This document shows, piece after piece, positions 53,491 through 58,180 of a stretch of 64,000 bases of DNA. The translations under genes were made by a program, and so were the position numbers. How positions within the stretch are numbered: the stretch's first letter is position 1; each line of letters opens with the position of its first letter. Under the pieces are notes generated by a model. That model ran no database searches, was not told the DNA's origin, and saw nothing but the letters and a program-made list of their open reading frames with translations. The stretch spans positions 1 to 64,000 of the forward strand of contig JAGQOW010000009.1 of the NCBI GenBank assembly GCA_020427155.1, written 5' to 3'. Origin of the DNA: Planctomycetales bacterium. GTDB lineage: Bacteria > Planctomycetota > Planctomycetia > Pirellulales > Lacipirellulaceae.

Positions 53491-54384
53491 CTAGTTGCCT
53501 GCCGTAGGAGCTACCTCTTCAGACTTCACATTGGCGATCATTGCCAGAAATTGCTTCATCGTCTGCATTCGCTTTTGCAGGTCGGGCAGCATGCACTGGG
53601 AAATCGCCTTGCTCAAAGTCGGGTGGATATTCGGGCAGAAATGTTCCAGCGGGGTCGGCTCGCTTTGTCCGTGACTCATCGCCGCCAGGCCGTCGCCGCT
53701 CCCGCGTTGCCAAGGCAACTCGAAAGTGAACATTTCGTACATCGACACCCCAAACGCAAAGATATCCAGGCGATGGTCCGTATGCTTTCGCCGTACCACC
53801 TCGGGCGCCATGTAGTTAGGCGTGCCTGTACGAATCCCTGGTTGCATGAACTCTTTGCTCGCCGGAACCGTCAATCCAAAGTCGATGAGTTTCAGCGATG
53901 TCGCATCCGGTGAACATACAAAATTCCGCGGACAGACGTCTCGGTGAATAAACCCCGCCTCATGCACCGCTTGCAGCGCCTCGGCTGCCTCTCGCATCAG
54001 CGTCAGCCGATTGCCGTCGAGCAGCTTGCTTCGGCCGATAATCAGGGAGTTCAATCCCGGTCCTTCAAGAAACTCCATGACCAGGAACTGCTCGCCTTTG
54101 GTTGTCAAACCATGGTTGAGCGTCTTGACGATGCGCGGATGATTGAACTGGACAGCGATTTCGCCTTCGGTCGGCTTGTTGAGGCCGCGAAATCGCATCT
54201 CTAATTGCTCGGTCTTCTTCTTGTCGAGAACTTTCAGCCCGACAATCTGTTCGGTCTCGCGATCGCGCACCTTGTTGAAGTCCGACATCGTGCCCGAGAC
54301 CGCTTCACGCAAGATCTCATAGCGCCTCGCCACGTCAACCTTGCCACCATCCATGACCGATTTGAAGAACGAGCTAATGCCCAT
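53491..54384 (-). CDS. Short serine/threonine protein kinase
   Basis: 297 aa from ATG 54384, because relatives start with a similar SFFKS motif; the frame is open to 54576. Kinase elements: a Gly-poor nucleotide loop (SGTMSDFNKVRD, residues 30-41), the catalytic Lys51 in VGLKVLDKKK, HRDVCPRNF (147-155) with Cys where Leu/Val is usual, DFGLT (168-172) and APE (193-195). The catalytic Lys and both Asp are present, so activity is plausible, but the weak Gly loop makes it uncertain. No membrane segment, so it is cytoplasmic. Confidence 0.88.
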   Translation of the reverse strand: MGISSFFKSVMDGGKVDVARRYEILREAVSGTMSDFNKVRDRETEQIVGLKVLDKKKTEQLEMRFRGLNKPTEGEIAVQFNHPRIVKTLNHGLTTKGEQFLVMEFLEGPGLNSLIIGRSKLLDGNRLTLMREAAEALQAVHEAGFIHRDVCPRNFVCSPDATSLKLIDFGLTVPASKEFMQPGIRTGTPNYMAPEVVRRKHTDHRLDIFAFGVSMYEMFTFELPWQRGSGDGLAAMSHGQSEPTPLEHFCPNIHPTLSKAISQCMLPDLQKRMQTMKQFLAMIANVKSEEVAPTAGN

Positions 54385-54645
54385 GATGTAAGCAATGTTC
54401 CACGTTTTGGGCGCAGCTGGCAGCGCGCCTTCTTGAGCTGAGAAACCAGTTTCCGTCGACTTGGCAACCCAACTCGCCCCTTGCTCGGCGTCGCCAGTCA
54501 CTTTCTCCCCGCTCTCTACTCTAAGCGCCTTAAGGGCTTTGGGCAACAAACTGCGGGTTGCTAACGCCTCAATCAACAGGGCTTGGGCCCGAAAACCATC
54601 AGTGGCCGGCCGTACCCACCATCCCTCGCCAGCTGCCTGAGTACG

Positions 54646-55497
54646 CTATTTCCCGCAATAATCGATCAATCGGGCAATCTCGCTCTTGAGATCGGCCCTA
54701 CGCACTACTCGATCGATATAACCGTGCTCTAGCAGGAACTCGCTCGTTTGAAAGCCTTCAGGCAATTCAATACGAATGGTGGCCTTGATTGTCCGAGGGC
54801 CGGCAAACCCGATCAGGGCCTTTGGCTCGGCAAGTATGACGTCGCCCAACGAGGCGAAACTGGCCGCGACTCCCCCCATGGTCGGATTGGTCATCACAGA
54901 AATGAACAGCCCGCCCGCCTCGTCGTATCGAGCCAACGCAGCCGACACCTTGGCCATCTGCATGAGCGAGAAGATGCCTTCGTGCATCCGCGCGCCACCG
55001 CCCGAACCGCTCACAATGATCAGCGGTAACCGTTGTTCGGTCGCCCGCTCGACGAGACGCGTAAGTCGCTCTCCGACGACCGAACCCATGCTCCCCATAA
55101 TGAACGCCGAATCGGTGACTCCAAACGCTACCCGGCGAGCGCGAATCATCCCGGTACCCGTCAACGCGGCATCACGCAAACCGGTACGTTTTTGCTCGGC
55201 CACCAGACGGTCTTTGTATTTCTTCTGGTCTTCGAACTGCAGCGGGTCCAGCGGCTCCAGGTTCGCATCCCACTCCTCAAAAGTCCCTTCGTCGAGCACC
55301 GTCTCGACTCGCTTGCGGGCACTGAGGTACATGTGGTAACCACACTCAGGGCAAACATTCATCAGGCGTTCGACTTCCTTGCGGAAAATCATCGCCCCAC
55401 AATCTTCGCAGCCCAGCCACAGCCCCCCAGGCACCCCACGCTTTTCGCGCACGGGTTTTGCCTTTTCGCTCGTTACGTCCGACTCGCTGGTAGCCAT
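54646..55497 (-). CDS. accD: Acetyl-CoA carboxylase carboxyltransferase subunit beta
   Basis: 283 aa from ATG 55497. A four-cysteine zinc ribbon is visible near the N-terminus ([14 protein letters not shown] and [13 protein letters not shown]), followed by the carboxyltransferase core with [56 protein letters not shown] and [20 protein letters not shown]. It works with AccA to move CO2 from carboxybiotin to acetyl-CoA in fatty-acid synthesis. The 261-base gap to the kinase gene suggests it is not a tight operon. Confidence 0.96.
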
Positions 55498-55700
55498 GTT
55501 CAAACCTAGGATCTACAATCCCCGACTGCCGCGAAACACCAAGATGGGCCGATTGGCTCTCCGCGTTGCGCCCCGCGGGAGGGCCCAAAACCTAGAGGCC
55601 AGTATATCAGTGAGCAAGCCGACCAGCCATGCCGGCTGACATCTCTTCGACTCAACAGTTTGCTCCCCTCGATGCGGCCAATCGCCGTAAACCAAAGGCT

Positions 55701-56279
55701 CTAAGGACTGGCAGCTCCTGCAGTCACCTCGATAAGTTCCCACTGCGGCAGGCACTTCCCCTCGACTCCCCACAGGTCGCCCAAGGCATCCTCACGCAGC
55801 ATATTCCTCAGCAACCTGGCAATCGCCGTGTCGACTACCAATCCGACCGTACCCGACTTGTGCTTCTTCATCACCTTCGCCAACAACTGTTGAAGTCGCT
55901 CTCGGGCCGCTTTGAGCGTCTCTCCACTCGGCGGGCAAACTGTCTCCGGATGGTCTTGCCACTGGCGATACACCTTCGGCTGCTTGTTCTTCACGTCTTT
56001 GATAAGCATCCCCTGCCAGAGGCCAAGGTTGAGATTCGAGAGGCCCTCAACCGTCTTAGCCTTCAGCGATAATCGGTCGGCCAAGATTTCGGCCGACTGT
56101 TGCGAAGCCCGGCAAGGTCCCGCATAGAGCGCATCGACTTCGGTTCCTTCCACCTGCTCGGCAACCTGTTCGATTTGTTGCCGTCCATCTTCACTCAAGG
56201 GGACGTCGAGCGCACCTTGAATGCGACCTTGGCATTCGTACTCGGTCGCTCCGGTGCGAACCAACATGATCGTAAGCAT
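55701..56279 (-). CDS. Histidine phosphatase-fold protein lacking the catalytic histidines (likely pseudoenzyme)
   Basis: 192 aa, with the phosphoglycerate-mutase fold: TIMLVRTGATEYECQGRIQG, LDVPLSEDGRQQI, and YAGPCRASQQSAEIL. The conserved motif is LVRHG; here His is Thr9 (LVRTG). The second His, normally in VSHGG near the C-terminus, is Asp (VVDTAIARLLRNM). Both phosphotransfer residues are therefore missing, so the protein is likely a binding or regulatory pseudoenzyme. It begins 19 bases after the rpe stop codon and may be cotranscribed with rpe. Confidence 0.83.
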   Translation of the reverse strand: MLTIMLVRTGATEYECQGRIQGALDVPLSEDGRQQIEQVAEQVEGTEVDALYAGPCRASQQSAEILADRLSLKAKTVEGLSNLNLGLWQGMLIKDVKNKQPKVYRQWQDHPETVCPPSGETLKAARERLQQLLAKVMKKHKSGTVGLVVDTAIARLLRNMLREDALGDLWGVEGKCLPQWELIEVTAGAASP

Positions 56280-56298: not shown

Positions 56299-56994
56299 TT
56301 ATTCTGCGATCGGAGCTGCCAGCCTGGTCAGTTGCGACAAAGCAGCCGTGTAATCGGTTTTGCGAAAAATGGCGGATCCAGCCACCAGCAGCTGGGCGCC
56401 CGCTTCGCCGCAAGCAGCGATCGTCTCTTCGTTGACGCCTCCATCGACCTCCAGCAGCACATCTTCCGGCAGTGTGGCTCGCAGGGTACGCAACTTGTCC
56501 AGCGCCACAGGATCAAACACTTGCCCGCCAAAACCAGGCATCACGCTCATCACCAGCACAAGATCGCACAACGAAAGTACGGGCTGGATCTCTTTCAGAG
56601 CCGTCGGCGGATTGATCGCCAGCCCCGCGCCTGCTCCTTGGGCACGGATTGCTTCCAGCACCGGGCGGGGGTCTTCTACCGCCTCTCGATGGATAGTGAC
56701 TACATCGGCGCCTGCTTCGACAAACTGACGAACGTACTTGCCGGGATCAACAATCATTAAGTGCACGTCCAACGGCAAATCGGTAAGCCGCCGCATGGCT
56801 TCGACAATCGGCAAACCGTAGCTCAAATTCGGGACGAACTGTCCGTCCATCACGTCCAGGTGGTACCCTTGGACTCCCGCCTCTTCCAGATCTCGCACCT
56901 CGCGTTCCAAGTTCCCGAAGTCGCATAGCAACAACGAGGGCAGAACCGCGGGAGACGACTCTCTCAGTCGAGCAAGCTGATTGGATTGAGGCAT
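56299..56994 (-). CDS. rpe: Ribulose-phosphate 3-epimerase
   Basis: 231 aa TIM-barrel protein. Catalytic regions: VLPSLLLCDFGNLEREV, GYHLDVMDGQFVPNLSYGLP with the metal/catalytic His and Asp, DVHLMIVDPGKYVRQF, MSVMPGFGGQVFDP and LLEVDGGVNEETIAACGEAG. It interconverts ribulose-5-phosphate and xylulose-5-phosphate in the pentose phosphate pathway. The histidine-phosphatase-like gene follows 19 bases later on the same strand. Confidence 0.97.
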   Translation of the reverse strand: MPQSNQLARLRESSPAVLPSLLLCDFGNLEREVRDLEEAGVQGYHLDVMDGQFVPNLSYGLPIVEAMRRLTDLPLDVHLMIVDPGKYVRQFVEAGADVVTIHREAVEDPRPVLEAIRAQGAGAGLAINPPTALKEIQPVLSLCDLVLVMSVMPGFGGQVFDPVALDKLRTLRATLPEDVLLEVDGGVNEETIAACGEAGAQLLVAGSAIFRKTDYTAALSQLTRLAAPIAE

Positions 56995-57445: not shown

Positions 57446-58180
57446 CTAGGAATCGTCGAGATCCTCGCTCCGCGGGAGTTCTGCAGCCGAACCGATACGA
57501 AACAGCGAGTTGAATCTTTCGGTCGTATGATAAGCCGGTTTCTTGTTCACCGCCTCACCTCGATCGAGCCGCAGCAACCCACGCCGGACCAGTTGACTCA
57601 ATATCGCCCGACTCGTTGAACGGCGGAGTCTCGCCACCTCTTCGGCGGTAATCGGTTGGCGATACGCGACTACCGAAAGCACTTCAATCGCTGCGGTCGT
57701 AAGTTTTGCCTCGCGTACCTTCCCATGGAACCGACGCCGGATCGCTTCGTGCTCTGGTCGAATCCGCATTCGATAGCCCGCGCCTTCACTGACAATCTCG
57801 TATGTGGTCTGGTTATCAAGGTAACTCTGGTTAAGTTCCGCGATCAGCGTATCGACTTCTTGAGGAGAAACATCGCGAATGTTGGCCGCCAGCTGGCGAT
57901 TGGTTAGCGGCTGCCCCTCGCGATTGCCGACAAACAACATCCCCTCAACGATCATTCGTGGCGAGATTACCTCGCCGACGGTCGAGGCCTTCTCCTCGCA
58001 ACTTGCCACTTCGTCGAACGACTCTGCCAGCTCGGGCACTCCTGGTCTGGCTTCCGCTGCGCCTGCCAGCCGTGCAAATGCCGCTGATAGCCGATGGAGC
58101 GAGAAACGGCCATCCGAAGATTGCTCGCCGCCCGTCCCGGTCGACAGATTGTTTTCTTGTTCTGCTGCCTGAGTTTCCAT
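57446..58180 (-). CDS. scpB: Segregation and condensation protein B
   Basis: 244 aa. The conserved winged-helix domains occupy about residues 72-225: MIVEGMLFVGNREGQPLTNR, then LTTAAIEVLSVVAYRQPITA, EEVARLRRSTSRAILSQLVR and GLLRLDRGEAVNKKPAYHTT. An acidic N-terminal extension of about 70 residues precedes them. ScpB binds ScpA and SMC in the condensin-like complex. The scpA gene is not in the window. Confidence 0.93.
   Translation of the reverse strand: METQAAEQENNLSTGTGGEQSSDGRFSLHRLSAAFARLAGAAEARPGVPELAESFDEVASCEEKASTVGEVISPRMIVEGMLFVGNREGQPLTNRQLAANIRDVSPQEVDTLIAELNQSYLDNQTTYEIVSEGAGYRMRIRPEHEAIRRRFHGKVREAKLTTAAIEVLSVVAYRQPITAEEVARLRRSTSRAILSQLVRRGLLRLDRGEAVNKKPAYHTTERFNSLFRIGSAAELPRSEDLDDS

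Follow-up and report, generated by a model that had tools for sequence, protein, structure and literature searches.

PspB is the non-catalytic subunit of iPSP2, the mixed-dimer enzyme that it forms with PspA in Hydrogenobacter thermophilus, and it would provide a precedent in bacteria for keeping an inactive homologue of the histidine phosphatases. PspA itself (iPSP1; PDB 4ij5 and 4ij6) has its catalytic histidines. A second described relative is HFP of Aquifex aeolicus, a riboflavin phosphatase (PDB 9mmh), whose pocket consists of R8, H9, N15, R58, E82 and H149 according to the available part of its description (PMC12051542). Pseudophosphatases as such are already a known kind of protein, as the accessible portion of a review documents (PMC10211241). 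The eukaryotic examples STYX and MTMR13 keep a phosphatase fold for binding, for competition or for the allosteric control of a partner. The term histidine phosphatase has 0 occurrences in the main text of this review, as far as the accessible portion extends. A literature search, with subscription papers mostly outside its reach, returned no paper on the pseudophosphatase family described here, and the main text of a transposon study of Planctopirus limnophila (PMC10632474), in the part available, makes no mention of phosphatase, accD or ribulose.

The window analyzed here is a stretch of 64,000 nucleotides from a Planctomycetales bacterium. One of its ORFs, which starts with ATG, encodes a protein that belongs by descent to branch 1 of the histidine phosphatase superfamily, as evidenced by its match to PF00300 (His_Phos_1; E 4.4e-36, 124.8 bits against a cut-off of 21.7) and by the shared fold. 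The nearest NCBIfam model was PspA (NF045917), and the 107.2 bits obtained lie well below its equivalog cut-off of 350; no NCBIfam model reached its cut-off for the window protein. NF045917 was also matched by 51/51 members of an alignment of the family, with a best E of 5e-35. The curated models nearest to the family are those of phosphatases and phosphoglycerate mutases, and its members are very probably neither. The rpe gene lies upstream on the same strand, at exactly the 19 bp that the original prediction had given, and accD, which was absent from that prediction, follows downstream on that strand after 197 bp.

Table 1. The gene under study and its neighbours in the window (columns: feature, coordinates, strand, evidence).
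Pseudophosphatase, histidine phosphatase branch-1 fold, 192 aa, T9/A58/N82/D150 for H/R/E/H	55701..56279	(-)	ORF, PF00300, residue alignment, model, fold matches
rpe, ribulose-phosphate 3-epimerase	56299..56994	(-)	TIGR01163, 245.7 bits, above cut-off 212.6
accD, acetyl-CoA carboxylase carboxyltransferase beta subunit	54646..55503	(-)	TIGR00515, 381.2 bits, above cut-off 317.45
Protein kinase, a context gene behind accD on the same strand	53491..54576	(-)	PF00069, E 8.2e-38
scpB, upstream of rpe, same strand	57446..58180	(-)	PF04079; TIGR00281, 88.1 bits, just below cut-off 89.2

The AlphaFold2 model of the window protein had a mean pLDDT of 94.3 and a pTM of 0.90. Among the 50 PDB matches listed, the Z scores ranged from 20.0 to 24.8. 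The best match was the H9A mutant of the phosphoserine phosphatase PspA, 4ij6 (VIA-align Z 24.8, rmsd 2.2, 185 residues, 27% identity), and the PspA fold is common to the window protein over its whole length. HFP, as presented in the available part of PMC12051542, has the same fold (Z 23.2), and W107, found in 91% of 181 family members, is shared between HFP and the family. The window protein probably folds normally. The original prediction had described the rest of the fold as well preserved, and the predicted model, with its full-length match to active enzymes, bears this out.

Whereas PspA has its catalytic histidines, the nucleophile His, Arg58, the acid and the second His are all replaced in the window protein. 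The nucleophile motif is L-V-R-T-G, with T9 in place of His, and the second His is replaced by D150; these are the Thr and Asp substitutions that had been predicted. The losses go further than was predicted: the general acid E82 is N82, the second phosphate Arg R58 is A58, and N15 is E15. The window protein thus has neither the nucleophile His of an RHG motif, nor the second His and the second phosphate Arg, nor a Glu or Asp as general acid. The numbering of HFP is nearly the same, and at its six pocket positions, as named in the accessible text of that paper, the window protein has R8, T9, E15, A58, N82 and D150, so that only R8 (1/6) is left. Three of the four core phosphate-pocket residues named in the same text (PMC12051542) are replaced, which argues against a sugar phosphate being held in the usual mode. 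Judged from these residues, ordinary sugar-phosphate binding by a protein with a dismantled phosphate pocket appears unlikely.

We gathered all homologous domains from 334 loci and removed duplicates, which gave 240 domains; 200 of these had rpe and/or accD adjoining (linked), and 40 were unlinked. The linked rows were mostly collected with the family's own sequence or profile. The nucleophile His occurred in none of the 199 readable linked homologues, Arg58 in 1/200 and the second His in 2/200. At the acid site, 181 rows had Asn, 15 had Glu, 3 had Asp and 1 had Gly. Arg8 was kept in 175/200. The two His sites were variable: the nucleophile site was P, S, T, A, C, D or G, most commonly Pro (138/200), and the second-His site was P, A, S, G, R, D, C, H, Q or T, again most commonly Pro (103/200). 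The Thr (18/200) and Asp (3/200) of the window protein are minority letters at these sites. Position 15, Glu in the window, was mainly Asp (170/200), and E120 and R19 were each present in 198/200. The unlinked homologues had His9 in 39/39 readable rows, and Arg58, the second His and a Glu or Asp at the acid site in 40/40. All 40 were of the active type at readable sites; the flank was shorter than 1000 bp on one side in 19 of them and longer in 21, which makes the classification of those 19 as unlinked less certain.

These counts speak to the check proposed in the original prediction, which was whether the substitutions are conserved, and to its concern that close homologues with an intact RHG motif would point to a recent mutation. 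The nucleophile His is missing in 199/199 readable linked homologues and no intact RHG was found among them, which rules out a recent local mutation. The proposed pseudoenzyme has, on the sequence evidence, become a conserved pseudoenzyme candidate.

Trees were built from 81 rows, comprising 23 of the 181 N82-type members (the window included), 19 other linked rows, and 39 of the 40 active rows (L242, a fragment, was left out). All linked rows fell on one side and all active rows on the other (100/99). Since the catalytic sites could themselves cause this split, 21 positions in or beside them were removed and the tree was rebuilt; the split persisted (100/97). The Asn82 rows formed a subgroup in both trees (99/98 and 96/96). 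Outside the motif-found loci described below, Asn82 tracked the window's class: the 19 linked rows without Asn82 all came from the same phylum, outside that class. As evidenced by the residue counts and the trees, the catalytic motif is missing and its absence is conserved: in the sequences compared, the catalytic residues are lacking throughout a well supported group adjoining rpe and/or accD in Planctomycetota. Within the linked set, two copies of family f104 (L276 and L280) were without the nucleophile His and still had the second His and, at position 82, an acidic residue. In family f27, the acid site was Glu (10) or Asp (2) in 12/12 copies and the second-His site was Arg. The f104 and f27 copies are possible stages of the loss of catalytic residues.

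The 181 members with N82 were strongly conserved at R19 (0.99), L87 (1.00), P116 (0.98) and Pro152 (0.97). The 40 active homologues had R19 at 0.60 and no such consensus at positions 87, 116 and 152. The most conserved positions of the 181 members that are unlike the active enzymes include R19, L87, Q89, P116 and Pro152, N82 being the residue that defines the subset. The window protein keeps R19, L87, Q89, P116 and N82, and has Ala instead of the family Pro at position 152. Invariant residues were also seen in the 51-member alignment. From the known fold, the family-specific residues would sit in loops around the old active site, and they could also serve folding.

The fold is kept, the catalytic residues are gone and the gene is intact in many Planctomycetota, where its neighbours serve sugar-phosphate and fatty-acid metabolism, which together suggests binding rather than catalysis. 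We therefore favour, with a probability of roughly 0.55, a binding-only pseudophosphatase of PspA/CobC-like descent, in which the old active-site loops form a putative interaction site and which leans slightly towards acetyl-CoA carboxylase. The loops of the former active site would now be a conserved site that grips a partner, with R19, P27, N82, L87-W88-Q89-G90, P116-P117-x-G119-E120 and the family Pro152 (Ala in the window) as its predicted residues. The partner would be either a stretch of protein or a small molecule without a tightly held phosphate. The variation of the two His sites alongside conserved loop residues suits a gripping site without phosphoryl transfer. More tentatively, the protein might be a regulatory or assembly subunit that acts on an operon partner, with AccD slightly likelier than Rpe; we prefer such a role in acetyl-CoA carboxylase over a role in Rpe with low confidence. 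The proposed role resembles that of STYX and MTMR13, although these have other phosphatase folds and are eukaryotic (accessible portion of PMC10211241). A control layer of this kind over acetyl-CoA carboxylase or Rpe in planctomycetes would possibly be new. A conserved dead phosphatase beside accD is also a test case for how a bacterial enzyme fold becomes a binding protein, possibly with transitional forms still alive.

The gene order around the family was examined in two sets of loci. The first was retrieved with tblastn and a short peptide motif, irrespective of linkage, and 80 of the 304 matches were kept. At least one of rpe and accD adjoined in 80/80 of these motif-found loci: both in 65, in the full order rpe-pseudophosphatase-accD, rpe only in 6 and accD only in 5, with one side too short in 4. 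The scpB gene was found in many, not all, of the 80. The second set comprised the 182 linked loci with enough flank, 18 of the 200 linked rows having been left out for too little flank. Both neighbours were present in 144, accD only in 22 and rpe only in 16, so that rpe lay upstream in 160/182 and accD was a neighbour in 166/182. The predicted linkage to rpe is therefore conserved, but it is not particular to rpe. An rpe-specific linkage is ruled out because accD adjoins equally often, and neither Rpe nor AccD is singled out by gene order.

Elsewhere in the phylum, 29 accD loci of 28 genomes were inspected, which came from 30 hand-picked genomes, some of them chosen for having a match; 14 had rpe beside accD without a pseudophosphatase and 3 had a pseudophosphatase. 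Given the rpe-accD pairs in 14/29 loci, the pseudophosphatase gene probably joined an older rpe-accD pair. The alternative history, in which the gene was lost from many lineages, is compatible with the same loci. In a partial correlation of distance matrices over 149 loci, the pseudophosphatase correlated with AccD given Rpe at 0.57 and with Rpe given AccD at 0.41, and this order was kept in 200/200 overlapping subsamples. The distance correlation is weak evidence, and the stronger tie to AccD may come only from a steadier AccD clock.

These results bear on the role that the original prediction had offered, in which the pentose phosphate pathway is regulated by a protein that binds Rpe or a pentose phosphate. 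The 19-bp spacing, the upstream position of rpe in most linked loci and the retention of the phosphate ligand Arg8 are in its favour. However, accD adjoins in 166 of the 182 loci with enough flank, R58, the second His and N15 are lost from the phosphate pocket, and the distance correlation is lower with Rpe than with AccD. We consider this role doubtful. As worded, a role tied to a pentose-phosphate enzyme or sugar phosphate is not supported, given the equal linkage of accD and the replacement of three of four pocket residues, and the pseudoenzyme part of the proposal stands.

Another explanation is that the protein is still an enzyme and that a remodelled pocket (N82, the acidic residue 15, R19 and E120) performs a new chemistry. 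The acid site is not drifting, as its Asn in 181/200 indicates, and the Asp at position 15 and the near-constant E120 and R19 would fit a working pocket. However, the nucleophile and second-His sites are variable, which is unusual for a catalytic pocket, and E120 may be structural, since the active enzymes conserve it to about the same degree (0.93). We regard a new catalytic activity as unlikely.

A PspB-like role, in which the protein would be the dead half of a mixed dimer with an active histidine phosphatase, is suggested by PspA being both the nearest curated model and the nearest solved structure, and by iPSP1 being dimeric in solution, as reported in the available part of PMC12051542. 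The window's own genome has a longer further PF00300 match (G000:C221, 45.5 bits, profile positions 24-192) in addition to a short one, and such a longer match was found in 4 of the 13 genomes of the genus (G000, G004, G007 and G008). However, 7/13 had only one short further PF00300 match of about 70 positions, and two (G003 and G005, 83 and 87% complete) had no other PF00300 match. In addition, the gene neighbours are rpe and accD and include no other phosphatase. We give a mixed dimer a low probability, which the longer match in the window's own genome raises slightly. As regards serine synthesis, SerB (TIGR00338) was below the cut-off in 20/20 genomes searched (the window's own and 19 relatives), so the last step may use another enzyme, and other phosphatases may serve in place of SerB.

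The kinase gene downstream of accD invites a reading in which rpe, the pseudophosphatase, accD and the kinase form a phosphorylation-linked control module of acetyl-CoA carboxylase in the window's class. The kinase would modify a carboxylase subunit, and the dead phosphatase would read, shield or hold that state. Kinase control of acetyl-CoA carboxylase exists in eukaryotes, and the module, if real, would be its bacterial counterpart. The conserved Lys, HRD and DFG sites of the kinase are present and its glycine loop is odd (GTMS). In 97/97 aligned rows, duplicates included, this loop was G-[TS]-M-S. The catalytic loop of kinases is commonly HRDxKPxN; here a Cys was found in it (HRDxCPRN) in 92/97 of the same rows, duplicates included. 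A kinase orthologue lay behind accD in 44/65 motif-found loci with accD and enough downstream sequence, and in 14/43 loci of the class with a pseudophosphatase. It also lay there in 19/26 accD loci without a pseudophosphatase (one was too short, and the genomes had been picked for no strong match), and in 0/24 judged loci of family f21 with one. Because the kinase follows accD with or without the pseudophosphatase, it belongs with accD. These last two counts weaken the kinase as a dedicated partner of the pseudophosphatase, and we hold the control module to be improbable as well.

The median dN/dS of the pseudophosphatase was 0.085 in 76 pairs of linked loci of moderate divergence, which share sequences and are not independent; 71 of these pairs yielded a value for rpe, with a median of 0.117. 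Selection thus maintains the protein: as far as sequence divergence can show, it is under strong purifying selection, about as strict as that on a housekeeping enzyme such as rpe, and neutral decay is rejected on this measure. Strong matches (E 2.5e-38 or better) were present in 56/59 related genomes, the window's own included; the others were one fragment at a contig end and two genomes without a match. A decaying relic carried in the operon, for which the absence of the gene from some lineages could be cited, is therefore dismissed as highly improbable in view of a dN/dS as low as that of rpe, the strong matches in the relatives and the invariant residues of the 51-row alignment.

In a sample of the class, 82/118 genomes had a match at E 9e-43 or better, and 2 more had a divergent copy beside rpe and accD. 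Two of the 82 (G078 and G062) were flagged for one stop within the matched stretch. Outside the window's class the gene was patchy; in one search beyond the class, the best candidates per genome, at most 8, were scored. On the best reading, almost every genome of the window's order has the gene, many of its class do, and the occurrence beyond the class is patchy. It can also be lost. No strong match was found in any of the 24 genomes of family f23, where rpe was also not beside accD in 18/18 loci inspected and the pseudophosphatase was absent there too, and one genome (L342) has rpe-accD without the pseudophosphatase. In L339, L340 and L226 (family f22, genus g73), a very divergent copy still stands between rpe and accD; it has Gln where Arg8 is otherwise conserved, and its second-His site is Asp. 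Finally, the planctomycete arrangement of rpe, pseudophosphatase, accD and kinase also occurs in one record titled Candidatus Nealsonbacteria (L166), which is probably a mislabelled or mixed bin.
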